Below are positions 4,054 through 56,605 of a DNA stretch of 64,000 nt, one piece after another. How positions within the stretch are numbered: the stretch's first letter is position 1; the number at the start of each line of letters is the position of its first letter. Source of the DNA: Prosapia bicincta (Eukaryota > Arthropoda > Insecta > Hemiptera > Cercopidae). The translations under genes and the position numbers were made by a program. The notes beneath the pieces are model-generated. The model was not told the DNA's origin and made no database searches. It saw nothing but the letters and a program-made list of their open reading frames with translations. The stretch spans positions 240,001 through 304,000 of the forward strand of contig JBAIZL010000060.1 in the NCBI GenBank assembly GCA_036971475.1, read 5' to 3'.

Positions 4054-4059
4054 TACGTC
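4054..4059. repeat. Left target-site duplication, TACGTC
   Basis: TACGTC stands directly before the first base of the left terminal inverted repeat. The same six bases in the same orientation follow the last base of the right repeat. A 6-bp duplication fits Polinton/Maverick integration and some other DNA transposon groups. Confidence 0.9.
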
Positions 4060-4099
4060 AGTAGGAAGTGTGATACTTGGGCGCGGACCCACCCCTAAC

Positions 4100-4560
4100 T
4101 TGGCCGCTACGTAACCTAGGACTATAGGGGTAGTTTTGGATGATGCTCAAGGTCATCCCGGCCTTGACCCTAGACCAAGGGGTGGTTTCGACCACGATTA
4201 GAGGGGTAGGGGGTAGTTTTTCGAAAAAAAAAAACAAAATCGGCCGCTACGTAACCTAGGACTGTAGGGGTAGTTTCGGATGATGCAGGAGGTCATCTCG
4301 GCCCCGACCCCAGACCCGGAGGTGGTTTCGACCACGTCTAGAGGGGTAGGGGGTAGTTTTTCGAAAAATTTTTTATTTTAACCTAACTCGACCGCTACGT
4401 AACCTAGGACTATAGGGGTAGTTTCGGATGACGTAGGGGGTTGACGCCTACCTGATGCCGGCCTAAGGGGTGATTTCGACCGCGTCTAGAGGGGTAGGGG
4501 TAGTTTTTCGAAAAAATTTATTTCCAACACACTGACCCAAGCTAGCCAAAATGGATCTAA
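4100..4560 (+). repeat. Outer G-rich repeats of about 140-150 bp
   Basis: Three units begin at about 4102, 4242 and 4390. Each contains CCGCTACGTAACCTAGGACT, then GGGGTAG runs and a TTTTTCGAAAA block. TACGTA, CCTAGG and TTCGAA are small palindromes recurring in each unit. The same block lies inverted at about 16304-16763. Position next to the terminus suggests a role in terminus recognition or replication, which is inference. Confidence 0.75.
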
Positions 4561-4626
4561 CCCAACCTAACATACGTGTTGGGGGTGACCTCGGCCACGT
4601 TCAGGACCATACGCGGGGGATGCTCC

Positions 4627-4653
4627 GGGGGTGGATTGGGGGTGGGGGGTAGG
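4627..4653 (+). other. Potential G-quadruplex in the left arm
   Basis: Runs of 5, 5, 6 and 2 guanines lie within 27 bases, separated by TGGATT, T and TA. The mirrored site is at about 16210-16236 on the other strand. Whether it folds is untested. Confidence 0.4.
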
Positions 4654-4660
4654 TTTCGAA

Positions 4661-4990
4661 AAAATTTTGGAAAATCGTGCCTTGACCGATAGGGTATGTC
4701 TAGAGTGTATTATTGCGTCGGTAGGGGTAGTTTCACCTAGGGGTAGTTTTTGAATAAAATACGAAATTGCCGAAAATCGATCGGTTGGATCAACAGACAG
4801 TACGGGATATGTCTAGAGTCCAATAAGGAACGCTGCGGGGGTAGTTTACCTAGGGGTAGTTTTTACAAAAAATATGAAATTGCCAAAAATCAATCGGTTG
4901 GATCAAATGACCGTATATGGTATGGTTAAAGTCTATTATGGACCGTTGTGGGGGCGGGTGCACCTGTTTTCAGATTGCCAAAAATAATCG
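4661..4990 (+). repeat. Degenerate repeats of about 120 bp with a CGGTTGGATCAA motif
   Basis: Units near 4735 and 4850 share CCTAGGGGTAGTTTTT, an AT-rich spacer, AAATTGCC and CGGTTGGATCAA. A related AAATTACC plus CGGTTAGATCAAACGACC stretch recurs near 6010-6045. The inverted counterpart lies at about 15873-16202. Confidence 0.6.
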
Positions 4991-5039
4991 GGGTCCTAGG
5001 TAATAGTCGCTCCCGAACCCTCGCTTGAGGTAACACCAC

Positions 5040-5990
5040 CTAAGAGTGGGTAAAGCTAACACGGAGCACGGTCTCGGTTAAAGGCAATCCAAGCCTAGCC
5101 ACCCGGCAGCTATGCCTTAGGTAAAGCTAACACGGAGCACGGCCTCGGTTAAAGCCAATCCAAGCCCAGCCACCCAGCAGCTATGCCTTAGGTAAAGCTA
5201 ACACAGAGCAAGGTAAAGCCAACCTGGGTAACCCCGGAATCAGGCCATACCTAGAGACACCCAGGAGCCGGGCCTTAGTTAAAGCAGTCAGCCTTTAAGT
5301 AAAGCTACTCAAGAGCCGGGCCAAGATGATTGCTATATCAATTACATCCTATCGACTAAGACAAGTACCTCCACCAAGTCCTAGGTAAAGCCATCACGAG
5401 GCCGACCCCTCGGTAAAGCCACCCAGGACCTAGGTAGAGCCAATAAGGAGCAAGGCCACAGGTAAAGCCACCCAGGATTTAGGTAAAGCCAATCCTAAGC
5501 TATGCCCTAGGTAAAGTAATCCGGGAACTCGACCTTAGGTAAAGCTATCCCGAAGCCTTGCCCTAGGTAAAGAAACCCAGGAACCAGACCATCGGTAAAG
5601 CTACCATGGAGTCGGGGCCTAGGTAAAGCTACCATGGAGTTAGACCTTAGGTAAAGCTAACAAGGAGCAAGGCCTCGGGTAAAAGCTATCCCGAAGCCAC
5701 GCCCTAGGTAAAGTAACCCATGAACTAGACCTCCGGTAAAGCTACCACAGAGTTAGACCTTAGGTAAAGCTAACACGAAGCAAAGCCTCGGGTAAAAGCT
5801 ATCCCGAAGTCATGCCCTAGGTAAAGCTACCATTGAGGCAGACCAACGGTAAAGCTACCACGGTGTCGGGGCTTAGGTAAAGCTACCATGGAGTTAGACC
5901 ATAGGTAAAGCAAACACGGAGCAAGGACTCAGGTAAAAGCCATCTCGAAGCCTACCGATAGGTAAAGTAACCCTGGATTCAGGCAACAAG
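5040..5990 (+). repeat. GGTAAAG tandem array (left arm)
   Basis: A degenerate array with the core CCTAGGTAAAGCTA or CCTTAGGTAAAGC. From about 5380 to 5970 the core recurs every 25-30 bp (roughly 20 copies); before that the spacing is looser. Sequences between cores vary. The mirror copy lies at about 14873-15823. A regularly spaced core with variable filler resembles binding-site arrays or the homologous repeats of large DNA viruses. That comparison is inference. Confidence 0.8.
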
Positions 5991-6089
5991 TGGGGGGTGG
6001 TTATCAAATGAAATTACCCAAAAATGATCGGTTAGATCAAACGACCAACGACGTACATAGAGTTCAAATAGTCAACAAGTTGAATCAAC

Positions 6090-7520
6090 CAATCACAACG
6101 CAGGGGCCCGGTAGGCCTACGTAAACGGTCAATGTAAGACGAGAAGGCCTATATAACGTGTTAAACCTATATATATGACAGCCCACATAATGTGTTAAAC
6201 AAATATGCAAGCCTACATACATACTATGCTAGGCCGACATACTATGTCGGTAAATCACCGGCCAAAGCCTATATGAACTGAGATAGTTTCACCTCATATA
6301 TCAGGTAGAACCACGGGCAGGCAACCGTATAATATGGGGAGTACTATAAGGTATAGCTAAACCAATATATACGATAGCCCACATAATGTGTTAAACAAAT
6401 ACGCAAGCTTGCATACATACTATGCTAGGCCTACATACATGAATCCCTAAATGCGCCTACTATGTCTGTAAACCACAGGCCAAACCCCGTATGACCTGAG
6501 CTATTTTCACCTCCTCTATCAGGTCGATCCTGGCAACCGTATAATATGGGAGGTACTATAGGGTACATCTACCAATGCATAACCTATCAAGCCCACGTAA
6601 AGATTTATGACGTATCGGCGTTCGAGCGACTCAGGTATTAGACTCACCCTAACTAGAGGGGCAAAGGGTTATGATTGTTAAACTCAAAATTTGTCTATGC
6701 TACAAAATAATAAACAAAGCAACAAAGCCCCGTCGTTTCAGGGAATACGCTTGACCGTGTGCTAGACATGTACAGACTTGCAGAGATAACACATTATCTA
6801 AAAACCGCAACGGCAGCCGCTATAGCAAGATTAAAAGTCGCACGGCTGTGTCGTTGTGAATCTAGGCTCGCGTCTATGTTTTGATTAATGTATCAATTTA
6901 CTGTGTACTGTCGTCATACCAGGCCTACATATATATAATCAGAAATCAGTGTAAATAATCAAATAGCCTCAATGGATATATCCTATAGCTGTAAATGTAT
7001 CTAGATATAAAGGTATATATGGAGAAACACTAATAGCTAACAATGCATAACCTATCACGCCCATGACGGTCAACAAATATTACAATATAATTTAAAAAAG
7101 TTACGCAACCTATATACATACAATGCTAACCAATATAGGCATATATACTATGTTAAACCAGCATGCAATATACTCTAAATATATAACCTATATACAGCCC
7201 TTATTAGGCAAATATCCCCGTTACCCACATAGGCCTATGTTAAACCAGGATGAATGATAGCTTATATAGTGTGTTCAATAAATATGCGTGTAAACCCACA
7301 TAAATACTATGCTAACCAGCATGGATGCTATCCTACATAGGCTTATATACTATGTTAGGCATGCATACGTAATTACCTATATAGTGTGTTAAATAAATAT
7401 GCGTGTAAACCAAATAAATACTATGCTAAGCCAACATGCACGCTATCATACTATGTTAAGCCTACATAATGTGTTAAACATATATGTGTGTAAGCCGACA
7501 AGGGCCTACAAATTATATCC
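6090..7520 (+). repeat. Degenerate CATACTATGCTA / GTGTTAAAC repeat zone
   Basis: Interspersed short repeats built from ACATACTATGCTA, TAATGTGTTAAAC and GGCCTACATA. Longer near-copies occur; for example the stretch around 6170-6340 resembles 6360-6560 (GGGAGTACTATA, CAACCGTATAATATGGG). No coding potential is visible. The mirrored zone is at about 13337-14773. Confidence 0.65.
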
Positions 7521-8250
7521 AATGCATAGTTTAGCTAAACGGCTATCACACACTATCCTACAAGCTGCCCACAAATTACCACAAATTACCTGATACATAG
7601 CCCGGCTAATCATTAACACATAGTAGGCCCCAACACATAATATCTGGTGCATAGCCTCGCTAAATAAGCATAAACTCCCGGCTTATCAATTATGTATGGT
7701 CTAGATATAGTCACACATGTCATTTCAAAAGTCAGCTGGAAAGAAACACTAGCCTGGCTAATCATTATCACATAGTAGGCCCCAACACATAATCTCCAAT
7801 GCATAGCCAGGCTAATGTTCATCATGTAGTACCCAATGCATAGCTTGAGTATGGTTTAACAAACAGTATCCAAAGCATAGCCTGACCAAGGGATATCACA
7901 TGAGTAGGCTGATTACAAACTAACACATAATAATCATTGCATAGTCTGGCTAATGGTTATTAAATAGTACCTGTTGCATAGCCAGGCTAGTGATTAACAC
8001 ATAGTACCCGATGCATAGTCTGACTAGGGTAAACACATAGTATCCGAACCATAGATTGACTAATGGTTAACACATGGTATCCAAAGCATAGCTAGGCTAG
8101 TGAATAACTAGTGGTTAGTTTGACTATGGTTAACACACACACAGTGTCCGATGCATAGATTAGCTAACGGATAACACATAATAACCTATGCTTAGCCTGA
8201 CTAGGGCTAACACATATCCTATGAATGGCTCGACTAAGGCTAACACACAG
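7520..8250 (+). repeat. Degenerate GCATAGCCTGGCTAATG repeat zone
   Basis: Units of about 35-45 bp with the pattern ATGCATAG-CCTGGCTAATGG-TTAACACATAGTA recur across this stretch. It is present once here but twice in the right arm because of a 597-bp tandem duplication. The 70-codon frame here (minus, 7613-7825) is made of repeat sequence and also appears twice in the other arm, so it is not called as a gene. Confidence 0.7.
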
Positions 8251-8265
8251 TATCCGGATCGAATA

Positions 8266-8273
8266 TGACGTCA
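8266..8273. promoter_or_regulatory. CRE-like palindrome TGACGTCA (left arm)
   Basis: A perfect cAMP-response-element type palindrome in the inner part of the left arm. The mirror copy is at 11993-12000, and a further copy lies in the core promoter region at 10351-10358. Such sites bind ATF/CREB-type bZIP factors; function here is inference. Confidence 0.35.
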
Positions 8274-8615
8274 TCCAGGGCGAAGACGGCGGCTATGTTG
8301 ATACCGTGATGGCCGGTGTAGGCTAGATCAAATAACCAAACCACTGCCTTACGCTAAGTTTAACCAACCAACATACGCGAAGTTCAAACGAACAACATTT
8401 ACACCAAGCTCAAATAGGCCGTGGCTGGTGAAGGCCAGATCAGCTAATCAACGCTGAAAAACTTACGCTAATCAACCAACATCCACACCGAGGTCAATTG
8501 GTTAGTGAAGGCACCGGCAAAAGCCTTAGGCCTTAGACATAGCTACCAACGCATATCAAAATAGCTATGCAGAAACCGTCAAGGCCTGTCTAGGTATGTT
8601 GTATCATTTACAGCA

Positions 8616-8800
8616 TACTAACTAAGGTAAAGCTACCTTTCAGGTATGCCCTAGGTAAAGCTACCTTTGAGGTAGGCCTTAGGTAAAACCACCCAGGTCG
8701 TAGGTAAAGCTAGCTTGGAGTCAGCCCCTAGGTAAAGCGAGACCATAGGTAAAGCCAACCCGAAGCCTTAGGTAAAGCGAGCTTGGAGTCAACCCTTAAC
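8616..8800 (+). repeat. Inner GGTAAAG array spanning the arm/core boundary
   Basis: Six or more GGTAAAGC cores at about 20-35 bp spacing. The inverted repeat stops at 8720 in the middle of this array. Its last units (8721-8800) exist only on the left side, so the arm boundary may have been set by recombination within the array. Confidence 0.7.
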
Positions 8801-8882
8801 AATAGTTAAGCGGCTACCGATGCTCGCCTTATCATAATAGGTACTTAAGGTGTAAATAAAACTCTGGATATACAGGTAAGAC

Positions 8883-8888
8883 TTTATT
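8883..8888 (-). terminator. Polyadenylation signal of the RING gene
   Basis: AATAAA on the minus strand, about 20 bases beyond the TAA stop of the six-exon RING gene. Confidence 0.6.
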
Positions 8889-8906
8889 AACGAATATTTT
8901 GAACAA

Positions 8907-10104
8907 TTACTCCAGGTTCAGATATAGCCGGTAGCGTCTGTCTACGTGTTTCCTACATATGGGGCACATCTGCACCTTTTCAGCACACTCGTTGCAATAA
9001 ACGTGACCGCAGGGTACGATGACGGTGCATGGTGGTCTTCCCAAGCAGACAGCGCAGTCCCCTATACGATAGCCGCCTCCTTCAATCTGCTCTCCCGAAC
9101 TTCTCTGTTTCAACACACGTACAAAGTGGATAATTTATATTATTGTACACGAATAGTATAAATACAGGTATCGCTACAAAATGTAACACTTACGACCGTG
9201 TATGGAGGGTCTCGCTCGACCATTACTGCCTTCGCTTCAGCGACAGCCACTCTTCTTCTGCCCTCTTCAACTAGCTTGTCCAGCTCGCCAATCATAATCC
9301 TCCATACGCCGACTGCGTAGAAGCTATCCTCACACGTGTCTTTACGCAACGCCGCCTCTAGGTCCGATACAAGCCGTCTTAGTATATGTAGTGCATCAGT
9401 CGTTACGCTACGTGCTGCAGCTGCACGTGCATACTCCACAACAGTCTAGAAAAGGAATAAATAGAAATTAATAAAAATCTTGTATAAGCCTATACTACTA
9501 CTATCACCGTACAATACAAGCTTACCGCATATTGAGGAGGATATCGTATCCTACGTCCTAAACAAAGTAAGCAGTCAATACGGGCATGCTCGACCCCTCG
9601 TATGTGCTTCAGTTCCTCCTCTAATACGCTTGAATGAAAAACTCTATTTCCAACCCTGATGATAGCGTGATTTATTGGTCCAGCCTATGAAATACAATTT
9701 ATTAGTAATGAAAAATACAAAGATAACGTTAATAACGCACTAGGAATACAATAATCACCAGTGTTGGATGGTTGGTAGACTCGAGTCCTTTGGCTGGAGT
9801 GTTTGTCCCCTGAAAGAAACATATCATTATTAGATATGAAAATGAGAATCTGATAATAGTCTAAATTGTATATAATTACCTGCGATGTGGTACCAGAGGT
9901 ACTCGGTTCGGCCTCCATCGAATTGCGGCTATAGTACGGTGTCCTTGGGCTACGTCTGCTATCATCCCATATACCCGTTTCATCGTCGTTGTTTGTTGGC
10001 TGGAAAACCAATGGAAAAATTGGAATAACGAAAAATAGAAAGTATTTAGAAGAAAGAACACACTATTTCATACTCACCTCTGACTGAATACTTTTATCGG
10101 TCAT
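8907..10104 (-). CDS. Six-exon RING-finger protein (probable E3 ubiquitin ligase)
   Basis: I reconstruct this gene from splice signals. Exons on the minus strand: 10104-10078, 9999-9880, 9809-9759, 9684-9526, 9445-9194, 9104-8907. Each intron (70-89 nt) has GT and AG ends and all five are phase 0, giving 268 residues. The first nine residues are MTDKSIQSE; a Ser/Thr/Pro-rich low-complexity segment follows (about 10-66), then a middle region with a CxxC pair (C104, C107), a helix-prone segment (about 120-203), and a C-terminal C3HC4 RING. The RING ligands are C220, C223, C235, H237, C240, C243, C250 and C253. A RING at the extreme C-terminus followed by an RxYLxL-like tail is typical of IAP-family E3 ligases, but no BIR domain is visible. 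It is transcribed divergently from the BIR-RING gene. The TAA stop at 8909-8907 and the poly(A) signal agree. The third intron's donor (GTGATT) is the weakest junction. Substrate unknown. Confidence 0.78.
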
Positions 10105-10575
10105 CGTTAATCTTAACACACTTAATTGCAAAAACGCCGAAGACTGGTGCTCTCTGTATGAAATTCCCGGCATATATACCTACTTCACCCCTCCCCGCGT
10201 AATTGCTCATCACAAGCCGAAAAACGGTATATAATTACCTCTATGACCGACGGTAATAGAGTAGATCATACTCACAGAGTTCGACAATGCTTCTTTAAAA
10301 CCTATACATTAATACTGTTATGACCGCGATATCAACATAACCGCAGCAAATGACGTCAAACAAAATGTCGGTCAAGATGGCGTCCGGACGGTCATCTGTA
10401 TAGGTTTAACTGTTGCTTGCCATAACACTAGTCCATCTGCAGGGAAGGTCGGCCAAAGGGCGGGAGTGTACAAATCTGAACGAGTTCAACATGCCTCTGA
10501 TCAACCCTGACGTAATCATCCCCTAACCAACAATATAAGTACGGACAGCACAGACCCAAGTCCTCAGACAACACC
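10105..10575. promoter_or_regulatory. Divergent promoter region between the two RING genes
   Basis: A 471-bp spacer separates the two start codons. On the plus side TATAAG (10534-10539) lies about 30 bp before a TCAGACA initiator-like sequence (10564-10570). On the minus side TATATA at about 10173-10178 lies about 70 bp before the ATG. A TGACGTCA palindrome (10351-10358) and a TGACGTAA (10509-10516) are CRE/ATF-type sites. GACCG/CGGTC motifs recur at about 10245, 10322, 10370 and 10397. Shared control of both genes is inference. Confidence 0.5.
10534..10539 (+). promoter_or_regulatory. TATA box of the BIR-RING gene
   Basis: TATAAG 42 bases before the ATG, with a TCAGACA initiator-like motif about 30 bp downstream. 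This predicts an unusually short 5' leader of about 10 nt. Confidence 0.55.
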
Positions 10576-11112
10576 ATGGTAGGTGTCTACTACTGGACAG
10601 ATACTCTCACAATCGAGAAGAAAGCCTTCCCCAAACTATCACCGTATCGTCGTAGATTACGATCGTTTCGTACTTGGAAAGGAGTGTCAAATGATACTGT
10701 CAACCCCGAGCGTCTCAGCGAGGCGGGTTTCTTTTACACCGGCCCAGAAGATCAAACATTGTGCTTTACATGCGCCGGAGGCCTTAAAGATTGGTCAGCG
10801 AATGATGATCCGTTACAGGAACATGCAAAGTGGTTTCCTAAATGTAAATACATAGTGGGTATATGTGCTAAACAGGCACAGATGGGGGAAGACATCTGTA
10901 CAACAGACGATGAAGACTACTCGGACGACGATGACGGTGTAAACAATCAGATTGATCGTACGCTGTGCAAGATTTGCTGTATCGAAGAAATACAGGTTGC
11001 CCTTCTACCGTGCGGACATGTGTTTGCCTGTCTGGGGTGTGCATTGAACCTTCATGAGTGTAGCATATGCAGAGTGCGGACATCCGCTACGATAAGAGTA
11101 TATCTATCGTAG
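10576..11112 (+). CDS. Inhibitor-of-apoptosis protein: one BIR plus RING (178 aa)
   Basis: A complete, intron-free frame starting at the first ATG after a TATA box. The BIR domain spans about residues 27-94, with the GFFYTG motif at 51-56 and zinc ligands C63, C66, H83 and C90. D77 and W86 match the acidic and tryptophan positions of the groove that binds IAP-binding motifs in XIAP BIR3 (E314, W323), while the W after DDP is L80. An acidic linker (about 105-120) follows. The C-terminal RING has spacing C-x2-C-x11-C-x-H-x3-C-x2-C-x6-C-x2-C (C131 to C165), exactly the IAP arrangement. IAPs restrain caspases and ubiquitinate partners in the cytoplasm. Many insect and baculovirus IAPs have two BIRs, so this is a minimal form. 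It sits in the core of a mobile element opposite a second RING gene. Family membership is nearly certain; whether it blocks apoptosis is inferred. Confidence 0.95.
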   Translation: MVGVYYWTDTLTIEKKAFPKLSPYRRRLRSFRTWKGVSNDTVNPERLSEAGFFYTGPEDQTLCFTCAGGLKDWSANDDPLQEHAKWFPKCKYIVGICAKQAQMGEDICTTDDEDYSDDDDGVNNQIDRTLCKICCIEEIQVALLPCGHVFACLGCALNLHECSICRVRTSATIRVYLS

Positions 11113-11138
11113 CCTAATGTAAATAATACTATGTGATC

Positions 11139-11144
11139 AATAAA
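11139..11144 (+). terminator. Polyadenylation signal of the BIR-RING gene
   Basis: AATAAA 27 bases after the TAG stop, followed by a T/G-rich stretch (TTTTGTTTACATGTGTTTG), the usual downstream element. Confidence 0.65.
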
Positions 11145-11162
11145 ATGATTTTGTTTACATGT

Positions 11163-11545
11163 GTTTGTACTTATTGAAACTCCTAAAACAAACTATATAT
11201 GTAGAGGTCAACATAGGATAAGTACTAGTGTCTTGATAATAATATGATTTGAACTATAACCAAATTAAACATTCAGTGTTAAATCTAGTTACAGCTGCAT
11301 TATACACATTACAATCTGCTTGACAGGTCGCAACCCGCACGAGACACATTACTGGATATCTAGTAATCTCGGCCTCTAGACAAGTTTAACACTAGCTTAG
11401 ACATATCTCATAAAAATTCCAATCACCCGGCGTAATTTAGGTTAAATATAACTTCGTAAAAACATGTAAACTCATGCTAAATCTAGTGTGGTATTTCTAA
11501 CATAAACTGTTGTTAAAATCTGATTAGGGCAAAACACAGGCCCTT
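11163..11545. other. Core spacer between the BIR-RING gene and the right arm
   Basis: Unique AT-rich sequence downstream of the BIR-RING gene, up to the start of the right inverted repeat. No frame, repeat or RNA gene is recognised. Confidence 0.5.
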
Positions 11546-12052
11546 CTCCAAGCTAGCTTTACCTACGACCTGGGTGGTTTTACCTAAGGCCTACCTCAAA
11601 GGTAGCTTTACCTAGGGCATACCTGAAAGGTAGCTTTACCTTAGTTAGTATGCTGTAAATGATACAACATACCTAGACAGGCCTTGACGGTTTCTGCATA
11701 GCTATTTTGATATGCGTTGGTAGCTATGTCTAAGGCCTAAGGCTTTTGCCGGTGCCTTCACTAACCAATTGACCTCGGTGTGGATGTTGGTTGATTAGCG
11801 TAAGTTTTTCAGCGTTGATTAGCTGATCTGGCCTTCACCAGCCACGGCCTATTTGAGCTTGGTGTAAATGTTGTTCGTTTGAACTTCGCGTATGTTGGTT
11901 GGTTAAACTTAGCGTAAGGCAGTGGTTTGGTTATTTGATCTAGCCTACACCGGCCATCACGGTATCAACATAGCCGCCGTCTTCGCCCTGGATGACGTCA
12001 TATTCGATCCGGATACTGTGTGTTAGCCTTAGTCGAGCCATTCATAGGATAT

Positions 12053-13246
12053 GTGTTAGCCCTAGTCAGGCTAAGCATAGGTTATTATGTGTTATCCGTT
12101 AGCTAATCTATGCATCGGACACTGTGTGTGTGTTAACCATAGTCAAACTAACCACTAGTTATTCACTAGCCTAGCTATGCTTTGGATACCATGTGTTAAC
12201 CATTAGTCAATCTATGGTTCGGATACTATGTGTTTACCCTAGTCAGACTATGCATCGGGTACTATGTGTTAATCACTAGCCTGGCTATGCAACAGGTACT
12301 ATTTAATAACCATTAGCCAGACTATGCAATGATTATTATGTGTTAGTTTGTAATCAGCCTACTCATGTGATATCCCTTGGTCAGGCTATGCTTTGGATAC
12401 TGTTTGTTAAACCATACTCAAGCTATGCATTGGGTACTACATGATGAACATTAGCCTGGCTATGCATTGGAGATTATGTGTTGGGGCCTACTATGTGATA
12501 ATGATTAGCCAGGCTAGTGTTTCTTTCCAGCTGACTTTTGAAATGACATGTGTGACTATATCTAGACCATACATAATTGATAAGCCGGGAGTTTATGCTT
12601 ATTTAGCGAGGCTATGCACCAGATATTATGTGTTGGGGCCTACTATGTGGTGTTAGCCCTAGTCAGGCTAAGCATAGGTTATTATGTGTTATCCGTTAGC
12701 TAATCTATGCATCGGACACTGTGTGTGTGTTAACCATAGTCAAACTAACCACTAGTTATTCACTAGCCTAGCTATGCTTTGGATACCATGTGTTAACCAT
12801 TAGTCAATCTATGGTTCGGATACTATGTGTTTACCCTAGTCAGACTATGCATCGGGTACTATGTGTTAATCACTAGCCTGGCTATGCAACAGGTACTATT
12901 TAATAACCATTAGCCAGACTATGCAATGATTATTATGTGTTAGTTTGTAATCAGCCTACTCATGTGATATCCCTTGGTCAGGCTATGCTTTGGATACTGT
13001 TTGTTAAACCATACTCAAGCTATGCATTGGGTACTACATGATGAACATTAGCCTGGCTATGCATTGGAGATTATGTGTTGGGGCCTACTATGTGATAATG
13101 ATTAGCCAGGCTAGTGTTTCTTTCCAGCTGACTTTTGAAATGACATGTGTGACTATATCTAGACCATACATAATTGATAAGCCGGGAGTTTATGCTTATT
13201 TAGCGAGGCTATGCACCAGATATTATGTGTTGGGGCCTACTATGTG
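12053..13246. repeat. 597-bp tandem duplication unique to the right arm
   Basis: Copy one is 12053-12649 and copy two is 12650-13246. They look identical along the length I compared. The left arm holds one copy. The junction lies in a short ATGTG/GTG microhomology. The duplicate arose after the arms became identical, so conversion between arms has not erased it. Confidence 0.88.
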
Positions 13247-14872
13247 TTAATGATTAGCCGGGCTATGTATCAGGTAATTTGTGGTAATTTGTGGGCAGCT
13301 TGTAGGATAGTGTGTGATAGCCGTTTAGCTAAACTATGCATTGGATATAATTTGTAGGCCCTTGTCGGCTTACACACATATATGTTTAACACATTATGTA
13401 GGCTTAACATAGTATGATAGCGTGCATGTTGGCTTAGCATAGTATTTATTTGGTTTACACGCATATTTATTTAACACACTATATAGGTAATTACGTATGC
13501 ATGCCTAACATAGTATATAAGCCTATGTAGGATAGCATCCATGCTGGTTAGCATAGTATTTATGTGGGTTTACACGCATATTTATTGAACACACTATATA
13601 AGCTATCATTCATCCTGGTTTAACATAGGCCTATGTGGGTAACGGGGATATTTGCCTAATAAGGGCTGTATATAGGTTATATATTTAGAGTATATTGCAT
13701 GCTGGTTTAACATAGTATATATGCCTATATTGGTTAGCATTGTATGTATATAGGTTGCGTAACTTTTTTAAATTATATTGTAATATTTGTTGACCGTCAT
13801 GGGCGTGATAGGTTATGCATTGTTAGCTATTAGTGTTTCTCCATATATACCTTTATATCTAGATACATTTACAGCTATAGGATATATCCATTGAGGCTAT
13901 TTGATTATTTACACTGATTTCTGATTATATATATGTAGGCCTGGTATGACGACAGTACACAGTAAATTGATACATTAATCAAAACATAGACGCGAGCCTA
14001 GATTCACAACGACACAGCCGTGCGACTTTTAATCTTGCTATAGCGGCTGCCGTTGCGGTTTTTAGATAATGTGTTATCTCTGCAAGTCTGTACATGTCTA
14101 GCACACGGTCAAGCGTATTCCCTGAAACGACGGGGCTTTGTTGCTTTGTTTATTATTTTGTAGCATAGACAAATTTTGAGTTTAACAATCATAACCCTTT
14201 GCCCCTCTAGTTAGGGTGAGTCTAATACCTGAGTCGCTCGAACGCCGATACGTCATAAATCTTTACGTGGGCTTGATAGGTTATGCATTGGTAGATGTAC
14301 CCTATAGTACCTCCCATATTATACGGTTGCCAGGATCGACCTGATAGAGGAGGTGAAAATAGCTCAGGTCATACGGGGTTTGGCCTGTGGTTTACAGACA
14401 TAGTAGGCGCATTTAGGGATTCATGTATGTAGGCCTAGCATAGTATGTATGCAAGCTTGCGTATTTGTTTAACACATTATGTGGGCTATCGTATATATTG
14501 GTTTAGCTATACCTTATAGTACTCCCCATATTATACGGTTGCCTGCCCGTGGTTCTACCTGATATATGAGGTGAAACTATCTCAGTTCATATAGGCTTTG
14601 GCCGGTGATTTACCGACATAGTATGTCGGCCTAGCATAGTATGTATGTAGGCTTGCATATTTGTTTAACACATTATGTGGGCTGTCATATATATAGGTTT
14701 AACACGTTATATAGGCCTTCTCGTCTTACATTGACCGTTTACGTAGGCCTACCGGGCCCCTGCGTTGTGATTGGTTGATTCAACTTGTTGACTATTTGAA
14801 CTCTATGTACGTCGTTGGTCGTTTGATCTAACCGATCATTTTTGGGTAATTTCATTTGATAACCACCCCCCA

Positions 14873-15823
14873 CTTGTTGCCTGAATCCAGGGTTACTTTA
14901 CCTATCGGTAGGCTTCGAGATGGCTTTTACCTGAGTCCTTGCTCCGTGTTTGCTTTACCTATGGTCTAACTCCATGGTAGCTTTACCTAAGCCCCGACAC
15001 CGTGGTAGCTTTACCGTTGGTCTGCCTCAATGGTAGCTTTACCTAGGGCATGACTTCGGGATAGCTTTTACCCGAGGCTTTGCTTCGTGTTAGCTTTACC
15101 TAAGGTCTAACTCTGTGGTAGCTTTACCGGAGGTCTAGTTCATGGGTTACTTTACCTAGGGCGTGGCTTCGGGATAGCTTTTACCCGAGGCCTTGCTCCT
15201 TGTTAGCTTTACCTAAGGTCTAACTCCATGGTAGCTTTACCTAGGCCCCGACTCCATGGTAGCTTTACCGATGGTCTGGTTCCTGGGTTTCTTTACCTAG
15301 GGCAAGGCTTCGGGATAGCTTTACCTAAGGTCGAGTTCCCGGATTACTTTACCTAGGGCATAGCTTAGGATTGGCTTTACCTAAATCCTGGGTGGCTTTA
15401 CCTGTGGCCTTGCTCCTTATTGGCTCTACCTAGGTCCTAGGTGGCTTTACCGAGGGGTCGGCCTCGTGATGGCTTTACCTAGGACTTGGTGGAGGTACTT
15501 GTCTTAGTCGATAGGATGTAATTGATATAGCAATCATCTTGGCCCGGCTCTTGAGTAGCTTTACTTAAAGGCTGACTGCTTTAACTAAGGCCCGGCTCCT
15601 GGGTGTCTCTAGGTATGGCCTGATTCCGGGGTTACCCAGGTTGGCTTTACCTTGCTCTGTGTTAGCTTTACCTAAGGCATAGCTGCTGGGTGGCTGGGCT
15701 TGGATTGGCTTTAACCGAGGCCGTGCTCCGTGTTAGCTTTACCTAAGGCATAGCTGCCGGGTGGCTAGGCTTGGATTGCCTTTAACCGAGACCGTGCTCC
15801 GTGTTAGCTTTACCCACTCTTAG
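14873..15823 (-). repeat. GGTAAAG array (right arm, mirrored)
   Basis: Mirror of the left-arm array: GCTTTACCTAGG cores every 25-30 bp through most of the stretch. A GCTTTACC spaced array also occurs at the inner end of the arm (about 11565-11645). Confidence 0.78.
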
Positions 15824-16804
15824 GTGGTGTTACCTCAAGCGAGGGTTCGGGAGCGACTATTACCTAGGACCCCGATTATTTTTGGCAATCTGAAAACAGG
15901 TGCACCCGCCCCCACAACGGTCCATAATAGACTTTAACCATACCATATACGGTCATTTGATCCAACCGATTGATTTTTGGCAATTTCATATTTTTTGTAA
16001 AAACTACCCCTAGGTAAACTACCCCCGCAGCGTTCCTTATTGGACTCTAGACATATCCCGTACTGTCTGTTGATCCAACCGATCGATTTTCGGCAATTTC
16101 GTATTTTATTCAAAAACTACCCCTAGGTGAAACTACCCCTACCGACGCAATAATACACTCTAGACATACCCTATCGGTCAAGGCACGATTTTCCAAAATT
16201 TTTTCGAAACCTACCCCCCACCCCCAATCCACCCCCGGAGCATCCCCCGCGTATGGTCCTGAACGTGGCCGAGGTCACCCCCAACACGTATGTTAGGTTG
16301 GGTTAGATCCATTTTGGCTAGCTTGGGTCAGTGTGTTGGAAATAAATTTTTTCGAAAAACTACCCCTACCCCTCTAGACGCGGTCGAAATCACCCCTTAG
16401 GCCGGCATCAGGTAGGCGTCAACCCCCTACGTCATCCGAAACTACCCCTATAGTCCTAGGTTACGTAGCGGTCGAGTTAGGTTAAAATAAAAAATTTTTC
16501 GAAAAACTACCCCCTACCCCTCTAGACGTGGTCGAAACCACCTCCGGGTCTTTGGTCGGGGCCGAGATGACCTCCTGCATCATCCGAAACTACCCCTACA
16601 GTCCTAGGTTACGTAGCGGCCGATTTTGTTTTTTTTTTTTCGAAAAACTACCCCCTACCCCTCTAATCGTGGTCGAAACCACCCCTTGGTCTAGGGTCAA
16701 GGCCGGGATGACCTTGAGCATCATCCAAAACTACCCCTATAGTCCTAGGTTACGTAGCGGCCAAGTTAGGGGTGGGTCCGCGCCCAAGTATCACACTTCC
16801 TACT

Positions 16805-16810
16805 TACGTC
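16805..16810. repeat. Right target-site duplication, TACGTC
   Basis: It follows the last base of the right arm and matches the six bases before the left arm. Confidence 0.9.
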
Positions 16811-17069
16811 CTAAATAATATAATTTTTTTTTTATAGTGTGTATATTTTTTTTCTTCAGCGGATTGAGTAACTTATTGCTGTTTAGGACTCTGTAAACCT
16901 ACGGAATACGCAGCATAGCTCGGTAGATACACATTTTGAAAGCATCTATTTTCTTACACATGACATCTTACAACACATCATGAATTATTATTTGTGCTTG
17001 TATCATTTAAAAATATTTTATTAAATTTTTTCTTTGCTCAATGTAGCACTGTAAGCAAGATTTACAGAA

Positions 17070-43731: not shown

Positions 43732-46634
43732 ATAAATCTTGGTTCACGTAAGATTGGTTATACAGTTTCACATTGAGGTCACGATATCTATCAGTATCAC
43801 ATTGAGGTCACATTTATAATCACTCTGACTATCAGCTTTTGTATAATAAATCTTGGTTCACGTAAGATTGGTTATACAGTATCACATTGAGGTCACGATA
43901 TCTATCAGTATCACATTGAGGTCACATCTATAATCACTCTGACTATCAGCTTTTGTATAATAAATCTTGGTTCACGTAAGATTGGTTATACAGTTTCACA
44001 TTGAGGTCACGATATCTATCAGTATCACATTGAGGTCACATCTATAATCACTCTGACTATCAGCTTTTCTATAATAAATCTTGGTTCACGTAAGATTGGT
44101 TATACAGTTTCACATTGAGGTCACGATATCTATCAGTTTCACATTGAGGTCACATCTATAATCACTCTGACTATCAGCTTTTGTATAATAAATCTTGGTT
44201 CACGTAAGATTGGTTATACAGTTTCACATTGAGGTCACGATATCTATCAGTTTCACATTGAGGTCACATCTATAATCACTCTGACTATCAGCTTTTGTAT
44301 AATAAATCTTGGTTCACGTAAGATTGGTTATACAGTTTCACATTGAGGTCACGATATCTATCAGTATCACATTGAGGTCACATCTATAATCACTCTGACT
44401 ATCAGCTTTTGTATAATAAATCTTGGTTCACGTAAGATTGGTTATACAGTTTCACATTGAGGTCACGATATCTATCAGTTTCACATTGAGGTCACATCTA
44501 TAATCACTCTGACTATCAGCTTTTCTATAATAAATCTTGGTTCACGTAAGATTGGTTATACAGGTTCACATTGAGGTCACGATATCTATCAGTATGACAT
44601 CTATAATCACTCTGACTATCAGCTTTTCTATAATAAATCTTGGTTCACGTAAGATTGGTTATACAGTATCACATTGAGGTCACGATATCTAACAGTATCA
44701 CATTGAGGTCACATCCATAATCACTCTGACTATCAGCTTTTGTATAATAAATCTTGGTTCACGTAAGATTGGTTATACAGTTTCACATTGAGGTCACGAT
44801 ATCTATCAGTATCACATTGAGGTCACATCTATAATCACTCTGACTATCAGCTTTTCTATAATAAATCTTGGTTCACGTAAGATTGGTTATACAGTTTCAC
44901 ATTGAGGTCACGATATCTATCAGTTTCACATTGAGGTCACATCTATAATCACTCTGACTATCAGCTTTTGTATAATAAATCTTGGTTCACGTAAGATTGG
45001 TTATACAGTTTCACATTGAGGTCACGATATCTATCAGTATCACATTGAGGTCACATCTATAATCACTCTGACTATCAGCTTTTGTATAATAAATCTTGGT
45101 TCACGTAAGATTGGTTATACAGTTTCACATTGAGGTTACGATATCTATCAGTTTCACATTGAGGTCACATCTATAATCACTCTGACTATCAGCTTTTCTA
45201 TAATAAATCTTGGTTCACGTAAGATTGGTTATACAGTTTCACATTGAGGTCACGATATCTATCAGTATCACATTGAGGTCACATCTATAATCACTCTGAC
45301 TATCAGCTTTTGTATAATAAATCTTGGTTCACGTAAGATTGGTTATACAGTTTCACATTGAGGTCACGATATCTATCAGTATCACATTGAGCTCACATCT
45401 ATAATCACTCTGACTATCAGCTTTTGTATAATAAATCTTGGTTCACGTAAGATTGGTTATACAGTTTCACATTGAGGTCACATCTATAATCACTCTGACT
45501 ATCAGCTTTTGTATAATAAATCTTGGTTCACGTAAGATTGGTTATACAGTTTCACATTGAGGTCACGATATCTATCAGTATCACATTGAGCTCACATCTA
45601 TAATCACTCTGACTATCAGCTTTTGTATAATAAATCTTGGTTCACGTAAGATTGGTTATACAGTTTCACATTGAGGTCACGATATCTATCAGTATCACAT
45701 TGAGGTTACATCTATAATCACTCTGACTATCAGCTTTTGTATAATAAATCTTGGTTCACGTAAGATTGGTTATACAGTTTCACATTGAGGTCACGATATC
45801 TATCAGTATCACATTGAGATCACATCTATAATCACTCTGACTATCAGCTTTTGTATAATAAATCTTGGTTCACGTAAGATTGGTTATACAGTTTCACATT
45901 GAGGTCACGATATCTATCAGTATCACATTGAGGTTACATCTATAATCACTCTGACTATCAGCTTTTGTATAATAAATCTTGGTTCACGTAAGATTGGTTA
46001 TACAGGTTCACATTGAGGTCACGATATCTATCAGTATGACATCTATAATCACTCTGACTATCAGCTTTTCTATAATAAATCTTGGTTCACGTAAGATTGG
46101 TTATACAGTTTCACATTGAGGTCACGATATCTATCAGTATCACATTGAGGTTACATCTATAATCACTCTGACTATCAGCTTTTGTATAATAAATCTTGGT
46201 TCACGTAAGATTGGTTATACAGTTTCACATTGAGGTCACGATATCTATCAGTATCACATTGAGGTCACATCTATAATCACTCTGACTATCAGCTTTTCTA
46301 TAATAAATCTTGGTTCACGTAAGATTGGTTATACAGTTTCACATTGAGGTCACGATATCTATCAGTATCACATTGAGGTCACATCTATAATCACTCTGAC
46401 TATCAGCTTTTGTATAATAAATCTTGGTTCACGTAAGATTGGTTATACAGTTTCACATTGAGGTCACGATATCTATCAGTTTCACATTGAGGTCACATCT
46501 ATAATCACTCTGACTATCAGCTTTTGTATAATAAATCTTGGTTCACGTAAGATTGGTTATACAGTTTCACATTGAGGTCACGATATCTATCAGTATCACA
46601 ATGAGGTCACTCTGACTATCAGCTTTTGTATAAT
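43732..46634 (+). repeat. 114-bp satellite array, about 25 units
   Basis: A homogeneous array with AATCTTGGTTCACGTAAGAT as landmark. Each full unit holds two copies of CACATTGAGGTCAC 29 bp apart. A few units are shortened to one copy (near 44596, 45470 and 46035). Variation is mainly GTTTCAC versus GTATCAC, TTTTGTATA versus TTTTCTATA, and AGGTCA versus AGGTTA or AGCTCA. No coding content. Confidence 0.97.
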
Positions 46635-52300: not shown

Positions 52301-54240
52301 AGAATCTTTTAATATATACGTTAACGCTATTAAAGATAAGGTAGATGGTTCGACGATTGTTAAGGTTATGTAAAAGTGTTAAATTATTGGAAAATCAATA
52401 AAGTTTTATAAACATATTTTAAAGATACGTTCAAGCTATGTATGATCATAAACGTTTTATATAAACATTTATTAGAAGCGTTAAATGGACAGAGGATCAT
52501 TAAATATTTATAGAAACATTAATGTGGTGGAAAGTTATTAAAAATTCATAAAGTGAATAAAAATATTTTATAGAAACGCTCTAACTATGGACGATCATAA
52601 AGTTTCTTAAATGTTAAATATAATCGTTAAAGGAGCGGAGGATCAATAGAGGTTTATGTAAGCATTAAAGTAATGGAGGTTGAGCTTCCGTATAAACAAT
52701 AAATAGAAACGTTAAAGCTATGGAGGTTGAGCTTCCGTATAAACAATAAATAGAAACGTTAAATCTATGGATGTTGAGCTTCCGTATAAACATTAAATAG
52801 AAACGTTAAATCTATGGAGGTTGAGCTTCCGTATAAACATTTAATAGAAACGTTAAAGCTATGGATGTTGCTAATCTGTATAAACATTAAATAGAAACGT
52901 TAAAGCTATGGAGGTTGAGCTTCCGTATAAACATTTAATAAAAACGTTAAATCTATGGATGTTGAGCTTCCGTATAAAGATTTAATAGAAACGTTAAAGC
53001 TATGGAGGTTGAGCTTCCGTATAAACATTTAATAGAAACGTTAAAGCTATGGAGGTTGAGCTTCCGTATAAACATTTAATAGAAACGTTAAAGCTATGGA
53101 GGTTGAGCTTCCGTATAAACATTAAATAGAAACGTTAAAGCTATGGAGGTTGAGCTTCCGTATAAACATTTAATAGAAACGTTAAAGCTATGGAGGTTGA
53201 GCTTCCGTATAAACATTAAATAGAAACGTTAAAGCTATGGAGGTTGAGCTTCCGTATAAACATTTAATAGAAACGTTAAAGCTATGGTGGTTGAGCTTCC
53301 GTATAAACATTAAATAGAAACGTTAAAGCTATGGAGGTTGAGCTTCCGTATAAACGTTTAATAGAAACGTTAAAGCTCTGGAGGTTGAGCTTCCGTATAA
53401 ACATTTAATAGAAACGTTAAAGCTATGGAGGTTGAGCTTCCGTATAAACATTAAATAGAAACGTTAAAGCTATGGAGGTTGAGCTTCCGTATAAACATTT
53501 AATAGAAACGTTAAAGCTATGGAGGTTGAGCTTCCGTATAAACATTAAATAGAAACGTTAAAGCTATGGAGGTTGAGCTTCCGTATAAACATTTAATAGA
53601 AACGTTAAAGCTATGGAGGTTGAGCTTCCGTATAAACATTTAATAGAAACGTTAAAGTTATGGAGGTTGAGCTTCCGTATAAACATTAAATAGAATCGTT
53701 AAAGCTATGGAGGTTGAGCTTCCGTATAAACATTTAATAGAAACGTTAAAGCTATGGAGGTTGAGCTTCCGTATAAACATTTAATAGAAACGTTAAAGCT
53801 ATGGAGGTTGAGCTTCCGTATAAACATTAAATAGAAACGTTAAAGCTATGGAGGTTGAGCTTCCGTATAAACATTTAATAGAAACGTTAAAGCTATGGAG
53901 GTTGAGCTTCCGTATAAACATTTAATAGAAACGTTAAAGTTATGGAGGTTGAGCTTCCGTATAAACATTAAATAGAATCGTTAAAGCTATGGAGGTTGAG
54001 CTTCCGTATAAACATTTAATAGAAACGTTAAAGCTATGGAGGTTGAGCTTCCGTATAAACATTTAATAGAAACGTTAAAGCTATGGAGGTTGAGCTTCCG
54101 TATAAACATTAAATAGAAACGTTAAAGCTATGGAGGTTGAGCTTCCGTATAAACATTTAATAGAAACGTTAAAGCTATGGAGGAAACCTAACGGCTTCCG
54201 TTTAAACGTTTAATAGAGCCGTTAAAGTTATGGAGGGAGG
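52300..54240 (+). repeat. 47-bp minisatellite, about 32 units, with degenerate flank
   Basis: From about 52674 to 54183 a unit containing GAGGTTGAGCTTCCGTATAA and AATAGAAACGTTAAAGCTAT repeats every 47 bp with high identity. ATTAAATAG and ATTTAATAG versions are interspersed, which hints at multi-unit amplification. Before 52674, back to about 52300, irregular diverged relatives (TATAAACATT, AGAAACGTTAAA) occur. The last unit (54184-54240) is also diverged. Confidence 0.95.
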
Positions 54241-55372: not shown

Positions 55373-55456
55373 TGGCAAACAAATCCAGAGCACTTGGAGA
55401 CACAACTTCACTTCACGAGAACAAGTTGGCTACTAACGGTAGTCATGGTCGAAACG

Positions 55457-56605
55457 TGTGTAGAGCTCAACCCAACAGAGGTGGTCGGGGAGTTCAGTAG
55501 TGTCGGGTGGTACGGTCGGGACGTGTGTAGAGCTCAACCCAACAGAGATGGTCGGGGAGTTCAGTCGTGTCGGGTGGTACGGTCGGGACGTGTGTAGAGC
55601 TCAACCCAACAGAGATGGTCGAGGAGTTCAGTCGTGTCGGGTGGTACGGTCGGGACGTGTGTAGAGCTCAACCCAACAGAGATGGTCGGGGAGTTCAGTC
55701 GTGTCGGGTGGTACGGTCGGGACGTGTGTAGAGCTCAACCCAACAGAGGTGGTCGGGGAGTTCAGTCGTGTCGGGTGGTACGGTCGGGACGTGTGTAGAG
55801 CTCAACCCAACAGAGGTGGTCGGGGAGTTCAGTCGTGTCGGGTGGTACGGTCGGGACTTGTGTAGAGCTCAACCCAACCGAGGTGGTCGGGGAGTTCAGT
55901 CGTGTCGGGTGGTACGGTCGGGACGTGTGTAGAGCTCAACCCAACCGAGGTGGTCGGGGAGTTCAGTCGTGTCGGGTGGTACGGTCGGGACGTGTGTAGA
56001 GCTCAACCCAACAGAGATGGTCGGGGAGTTCAGTCGTGTCGGGTGGTACGGTCGGGACGTGTGTAGAGCTCAACCCAACAGAGGTGGTCGGGGAGTTCAG
56101 TAGTGTCGGGTGGTACGGTCGGGACGTGTGTAGAGCTCAACCCAACCGAGGTGGTCGGGGAGTTCAGTCGTGTCGGGTGGTACGGTCGGGACGTGTGTAG
56201 AGCTCAACCCAACAGAGATGGTCGGGGAGTTCAGTCGTGTCGGGTGGTACGGTCGGGACGTGTGTAGAGCTCAACCCAACAGAGGTGGTCGGGGAGTTCA
56301 GTCGTGTCGGGTGGTACGGTCGGGACGTGTGTAGAGCTCAACCCAACAGAGATGGTCGGGGAGTTCAGTCGTGTCGGGTGGTACGGTCGGGACGTGTGTA
56401 GAGCTCAACCCAACAGAGATGGTCGGGGAGTTCAGTCGTGTCGGGTGGTACGGTCGGGACGTGTGTAGAGCTCAACCCAACAGAGGTGGTCGGGGAGTTC
56501 AGTCGTGTCGGGTGGTACGGTCGGGACGTGTGTAGAGCTCAACCCAACAGAGATGGTCGGGGAGTTCAGTCGTGTCGGGTGGTACGGTCGAGACGTGTGT
56601 AGCGG
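55457..56605 (+). repeat. 67-bp GC-rich minisatellite, about 17 units
   Basis: Each unit contains GTGTAGAGCTCAACCCAACA, GGTCGGGGAGTTCAGT and GTCGGGTGGTACGGTCGGGA. The last part matches the right terminus of the Harbinger remnant, so the array looks like expansion of the element's own end. Units vary at AGAGAT/AGAGGT/CGAGGT and GTAGTG/GTCGTG. Confidence 0.95.

Follow-up and report, generated by a model that had tools for sequence, protein, structure and literature searches.

The element and its two genes

The window analysed here, 64,000 nucleotides of Prosapia bicincta (contig C326, JBAIZL010000060.1, positions 240001-304000), contains a mobile element of 12,745 bp (4060-16804), which consists of two giant inverted arms around a two-gene core and is enclosed by two copies of the hexanucleotide TACGTC. 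An initial annotation of the sequence had described the same ends and 6-bp duplications, with arms of 4.7 and 5.3 kb and a core of 2.8 kb, and all were placed as claimed (Table 1). The element starts with AGTAGG and finishes with CCTACT, and its 24-base tip was matched twice in the window, against a mean of 0.00 matches by chance. The two arms differ by three substitutions (two of them adjacent), a single base of a poly-A stretch and a tandem duplication of 597 bp, and it is almost wholly because of this duplication that they are unequal in size. Beyond 8720 and 11545 the match between the arms ends abruptly, and on the left side only the repeat array of the arm continues into the core for several tens of bases. 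The left arm is internally repetitive: tandem arrays detected with Tandem Repeats Finder (periods 24 to 141 bp) cover 37% of it, and 63% resembles another stretch within the same arm. The G+C content is 43.5% in the element and 31.9% in the remainder of the window.

The stop-to-stop open reading frames (ORFs) of at least 100 aa in the element are those of the two core genes and a 110-aa frame of the terminal repeat, which overruns the right end of the element and had no significant Pfam match. The ORF list, together with Pfam, bears out that a BIR-RING IAP and a RING protein are the only genes of the core; at the same length threshold it contained no mobility gene, as had also been stated, and no polymerase B, integrase, ATPase or capsid frame in 4060-16804. 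An Rfam search of the window gave 0 matches. The product of the intronless IAP gene has the BIR (Pfam, 3.3e-22) and C-terminal RING (5.9e-10) that define an IAP, both scoring above the cut-offs, and its BIR resembles the solved structures of NAIP, cIAP, livin and XIAP. The RING of the second gene, which scored 1.7e-11 in Pfam, has the RING of livin/BIRC7 as its best match in the PDB (1.4e-10). Presumably the IAP cargo blocks apoptosis; that its BIR-less partner may modify the IAP through pairing of the two RINGs is speculation.

Table 1. Coordinates of the element, its genes and repeats, and other features (window numbering unless a contig or locus is given)
Feature	Position	Strand	Remarks
Left target-site duplication	4054..4059		TACGTC; sequence comparison of ends
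Left arm	4060..8720	+	4,661 bp; AGTAGG tip; no ORF of at least 100 aa
Subterminal tandem repeat	4102..4517	+	140 bp, 2.9 copies; mirrored at 16344-16770
Unique core	8721..11545		two genes
RING gene	8907..10104	-	modelled, 6 exons, GT..AG introns; 268 aa; C-terminal RING
RING gene exons	10104-10078, 9999-9880, 9809-9759, 9684-9526, 9445-9194, 9104-8907	-	
CAGGTA in RING intron 5	9165..9170		site duplicated around the nested Maverick on C340
IAP gene	10576..11112	+	178 aa; one BIR and C-terminal RING; Pfam
Right arm	11546..16804	-	5,259 bp; inverted copy of left arm
Tandem duplication, right arm only	12053-12649 = 12650-13246		597 bp; copies 100% identical
Terminal-repeat ORF	16486-16815		110 aa
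Right target-site duplication	16805..16810		TACGTC; sequence comparison of ends
Nested Maverick	L019:5591 to L021:9457		C340 copy
C333_100 copy	C333:100486647-100498946		L061, L062
Reverse transcriptase ORF	L026:598-3060		C146_254
Reverse-transcriptase-like ORFs	L028:3432-5800		C286
Inverted pairs of IAP matches	C260:223575476/223579729; C313:82145090/82151130; C313:267176912/267181970		
Open frame of 700 aa	28354-30453	-	leucine-rich repeats and immunoglobulin domain; probably a host cell-surface gene
Satellite-like tandem arrays	43732-46634, 52558-54236, 55447-56602		periods near 114, 94 and 67 bp (self-match offsets)

Copies across the genome

The 2.2-Gb assembly (361 contigs) was searched with the outer 1.9 kb of the arm, and at least 66 matches were obtained, the best 40 of 4,278 candidates being scored. 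The arms are thus multi-copy, and not single-copy as the initial annotation had allowed they might be. These 40 rows resolved into 16 inverted pairs, that of the window included, and 8 single hits outside the pair set; nine pairs were read fully or nearly so, and seven at their tips only. An exact 6-bp duplication adjoined the AGTAG tips in all 16 pairs: TACGTC, ATCCAG, CTGGTT, AACTCT, TACGGG, ATATAT, GACAGT, GTTTAG, CGTATT, ACCATA, ATTAAC, ATTAAT, TACATG, AGCATG, CACTTG and CACATC. It was unambiguous in 15, ATATAT (the copy on C199) sitting within an AT run. The scan for duplications was blind to the tip motif, and the palindromic hexamers within the arms that it also listed (e.g. GCGCGC) were set aside. 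Further copies with different duplications, proposed earlier as a check on the element, are therefore present. AGTAG was conserved in 32 of 32 tips; the bases following it vary among copies, and the full AGTAGT tip was found in two of the 16 giant-armed copies.

Assemblers have difficulty with long, near-perfect palindromes, and the contig of the window is only 455 kb, so that falsely mirrored contigs have to be considered. The 15 unambiguous and differing duplications, however, lie at separate places with non-mirrored flanks, arm length and identity vary among copies, and the core is distinct. We therefore regard an assembly artefact as very improbable.

The IAP and RING genes were both present in two of the nine copies read (the window and C340), and neither was detected in the other seven; by coordinates, an IAP match is also contained in two of the seven tip-only copies (C79_284 and C333_100). 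Four copies were near-perfect palindromes without detected genes, meaning that no IAP or RING was found by tblastn at 1e-3 and no internal ORF of at least 130 aa, apart from a 143-aa terminal-repeat ORF in C260_89 and one ORF across the right end of C313_243. Their arms measured 6,249 bp (100% identical), 6,272 bp (99.92%), 6,228 bp (99.97%, over a 6,244-bp alignment including an AT run) and about 6,041 bp (99.92%), around centres of at most 379, 65, 161 and 65 bp respectively. IAP matches also occurred as three inverted pairs with a spacing of 4-6 kb, known by their coordinates only; an IAP located within each arm of a palindrome would give such an arrangement.

The length of 14 of the 16 copies was 11,537-12,877 bp (mean 12,309, standard deviation 436), the outliers being C79_18 (8,937 bp) and C146_254 (15,722 bp). 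Copies with genes and copies without them are of similar length, which suggests that length is constrained; alternatively the similarity may come from shared descent, the arms being related family-wide. One arm of C146_254 contains approximately 3 kb extra, encoding a reverse transcriptase with a GIY-YIG domain, which we take to be Penelope-like. ORFs judged by eye to be reverse-transcriptase-like lie next to an unpaired arm hit on C286.

Within a copy the arms were 97.6-100% identical in the nine copies read, with the lowest value in C340, while the outer arm of the window was 83-93% identical to those of other copies with long matches. The two tips of a copy differed by 0-1.3% in 14 of 16 copies (97-320 bp compared), and the two tips were sisters on a tree in 14 of 16 (supports 0.43 to 0.999 where given). 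The closest tip from another copy was 1.9-11.5% distant, for 14 copies. The tips of C333_100 are 12% apart, yet its duplication, ATTAAC, matches, and its right tip equals the right tip of C260_89 over roughly 100 bases compared. Since the duplication matches despite the unlike tips, the chimera most likely formed before insertion.

The IAP protein was used as query and the best-matching 150 of 2,805 candidates were scored, a choice that favours intact copies. At least 150 essentially full-length matches of 89-100% identity were obtained, 139 of the 150 without a stop. The 30 loci that were read are the best IAP protein matches, the window included. All 30 contained the same core, with the IAP beside the RING gene and then an inverted arm, whose edge (window numbering) fell at 8720 in 26 loci and, in two loci each, at 8738 and 8787. 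The RING introns were kept in the loci read, one of which (L055) is without part of the RING gene.

These loci also bear on whether the IAP copies spread from a host gene by retroposition or by segmental duplication, as intronless genes scattered over contigs might have done; the intronless IAPs of the hard clam are read as retroposed in the available text of PMC7831173. The constant position of the IAP beside an intron-keeping gene and an inverted arm argues against such a route, and the target duplications enclose the element, not the gene. Retroposition is therefore rejected for the 30 loci read, of at least 150 matches, and as a general account of the copies we find it scarcely credible. 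The available parts of PMC7831173 and PMC8917759 describe many intronless IAPs scattered over the chromosomes of the hard clam, with DNA transposons enriched near IAPs, and propose tandem duplication and retroposition for the expansions in bivalves. In contrast to what those parts propose, the copies described here ride a DNA element with target duplications.

Exons 1-5 of the RING gene gave a pN/pS (nonsynonymous to synonymous polymorphism) of 0.25 over the 30 copies, with 40 nonsynonymous and 43 synonymous variants where 76% nonsynonymous are expected (p=3.3e-8), counts that are not fully independent because the copies share ancestry. In these exons a stop occurred in one copy and a gap of 50 codons in one; divergence among copies was 1.5-5.5% in introns and intergenic DNA. 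As the same loci had not been chosen on RING, these figures show that the RING gene is under purifying selection. The IAP gave a pN/pS of 0.088 (BIR 0.026, linker 0.70, RING part 0.10; 15 nonsynonymous to 24 synonymous variants), which was dropped as clean proof of selection because the loci are the best protein matches, and the RING gene was used instead.

A nested Maverick and the mode of insertion

The C340 copy measures 34,793 bp and consists of an 11,919-bp IAP/RING copy with a 22,868-bp insert in intron 5 of the RING gene. The insert starts with AGTAGTGACGGGG and finishes with its reverse complement. It has AGTAGT tips, terminal inverted repeats (TIRs) of approximately 430 bp that are 97% identical, and CAGGTA on both sides. 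Pfam matches were obtained to PolB (2e-47), integrase (4.3e-13, with an additional sub-threshold chromo match), an A32-like ATPase (1.3e-6) and a double-jelly-roll protein (2.6e-109); other predicted products resemble a matrixin/hemopexin protease, a phospholipase A2 and YadA-stalk or T7-tail-fibre proteins. By these predicted proteins the insert is a Maverick with the main hallmark genes, if not necessarily a complete one.

The initial annotation had suggested looking for a larger copy in which the same termini would enclose integrase and polymerase. The only large copy, that on C340, is instead an element interrupted by this Maverick: its junctions reveal a separate Maverick with TIRs and a target-site duplication (TSD) of its own. 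The 34.8-kb copy was accordingly rejected as an autonomous parent, and the same junctions led us to reject the window copy as its internal deletion. A derivation of the arms from the ends of the nested Maverick was likewise rejected, no blastn match being found at 1e-3.

The nested Maverick also carries homologues of both cargo genes. Its IAP is 48% identical to that of the window over residues 55-178 and 60% over residues 7-53, and its RING homologue aligns with the window RING gene over the exons and at each of the five introns, apart from one additional repeated segment close to exon 3. The same type of tip, the same duplication length and homologues of both cargo genes in one Maverick form the strongest link to this group. 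Viral-contig scans queried with the RING protein, the IAP, the tip pattern and the capsid protein found no relative.

For intact vertebrate Mavericks, the available text of PMC8097293 gives 6-bp TSDs, (AGT)2//(ACT)2 as the commonest end motif, TIRs of 46-1,447 bp, lengths of 12.7-24.6 kb and core genes that are present. The element of the window is like them in its 6-bp TSD, AGT-type tips and terminal inverted repeats, and in having homologues of its cargo in a Maverick of the same genome. It differs in that no polymerase, integrase, ATPase or capsid gene was seen in it and in that its tips are AGTAGG, not AGTAGT. Insertion with a 6-bp duplication at AGTAG ends is shown for the element, as it is for its relatives and for a Maverick of the same genome. 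Since the element inserts as Mavericks do and has neither their genes nor their arm size, it is classed as a dependent derivative and not as a Maverick proper. We conclude that it is probably a non-autonomous Maverick/Polinton derivative, moved by Maverick proteins in trans. The proposal of such a relative, spreading as an IAP cassette, had already been made from the window; the TSDs, tips, cargo homologues and at least 150 IAP matches uphold it, whereas an autonomous element with the same arms was not found among the 16 pairs. To judge from tips, TSD and shared cargo, a Maverick integrase would recognise the AGTAG tips and insert the element in trans, and a Maverick polymerase, also supplied in trans, would replicate it.

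The very long, internally repetitive arms, and the ORF list in which no mobility gene was seen, would also fit the anatomy of a foldback-type cut-and-paste element belonging to an undescribed transposase superfamily, which makes 6-bp duplications by chance. Against that explanation, the AGTAG tips and 6-bp TSD agree with those of the nested Maverick, where the RING/IAP pair also has homologues, and we consider it unlikely. Other known families do not fit: IS3EU and GingerRoot were rejected because their ends, with 6-bp TSDs, are TA..TA (in GingerRoot occasionally TG..CA), and Ginger2/Tdd because its ends are TGTNR, all unlike AGTAG..CTACT.

Origin of the arms and a possible satellite

The preferred reading, a Maverick-dependent element, has to account for the arms. 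Less certainly than the steps above, a single strand displaced during replication may fold back on itself over most of its length, and one arm may then be copied from the other in snap-back or panhandle style. Such copying would leave the arms near-identical within a copy while copies diverge, and would allow arm extension, gene-free palindromes and chimeric ends that arise before insertion.

Long inverted arms are also good substrates for conversion. An element moved by Mavericks could have had its arms equalised or lengthened on the chromosome, through gene conversion or break repair, as proposed for Galileo. In the available text of PMC3573991 the TIRs of one Galileo copy are 98-100% identical, the longest TIRs are in non-autonomous copies, and a break-repair model is given; TIRs reach about 1.26 kb and the duplications are 7 bp. 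Chimeric Galileo copies are described there as having no matching TSDs, whereas the TSD of C333_100 matches. Two further observations speak against repair on the chromosome: in 14 of 16 copies identity extends right to the ends, and the length is near 12.3 kb with or without genes. We retain such repair as a possible but doubtful source of the arms.

As far as that text describes it, Galileo resembles the present family in its long, repetitive inverted arms, near-identical within a copy and longest in non-autonomous copies, and in having chimeras. The family differs in its 6-bp duplications (16 of 16 pairs), in arms approximately four times longer, in a single chimeric copy whose duplications match, in cargo genes that are open and in that no P-type transposase was seen. 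The statement that no described transposon family matches such terminal repeats goes somewhat too far, since foldback elements such as Galileo, on the same text, likewise have long TIRs with internal repeats, albeit far shorter than the arms.

Several observations weigh against a Maverick-dependent element with arms copied during replication. The arms are 4.7-5.3 kb long, and over 6 kb in four siblings, which is more than three times the maximum of the 46-1,447 bp given for vertebrate Mavericks in the available text cited above. In a blastn comparison (E 1e-3) they had no similarity to the nested Maverick, so that descent from it is unsupported, and the 16 pairs included no giant-armed element with polymerase or integrase. 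The nested Maverick is itself without a Pfam-named viral protease or minor capsid gene, and NCBIfam, run on six proteins, matched its integrase only, below cut-off. The tips of C333_100 and C260_89 are not sister pairs, those of C79_284 are 6.7% apart over about 105 bp with a sister support of 0.43, and the arms of the C340 copy are only 97.6% identical. Finally, the IAP sample was chosen by protein similarity and is biased to conservation.

A further step, which we offer tentatively as one possibility, is that the family is a self-complementary Maverick satellite: a defective genome of about 12.3 kb, copied in snap-back fashion with helper proteins, held at a fixed length (perhaps by packaging in the capsids of the helper) and carrying an anti-apoptotic gene pair in its IAP form. 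By homology, the IAP, perhaps together with the BIR-less RING protein, would keep apoptosis blocked during replication of the element or of its helper. The snap-back satellite genomes of adeno-associated virus (AAV), as presented in the available text of PMC8235507, are the nearest analogue, a self-complementary dependent genome being what we infer here; AAV is, however, a parvovirus for which particles have been shown, whereas the element is known only as integrated copies. Among the papers listed from the open PMC literature, no title or start of an abstract describes an IAP-carrying or palindromic Polinton, and PMC8905726 names both Polinton and IAPs without joining them in its available text. 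If the satellite reading were true, the gene-free palindromes would be a form like that of defective interfering genomes, and the family, with its many germline copies, would represent a DNA satellite system that depends on a virus-like element of animals.

The Prosapia copies thus make up a dependent family with Maverick-type ends that is now mostly inverted repeat, some copies being almost pure palindrome. Its arms stay close to equal and its length varies little, and it has carried an IAP to many places. Three questions become testable with it: whether satellites of Mavericks exist, by what means long inverted arms are kept identical, and whether scattered intronless IAPs can be the cargo of a DNA transposon. 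On the last of these, the copies described here suggest a DNA-based route for the spread of IAP genes.

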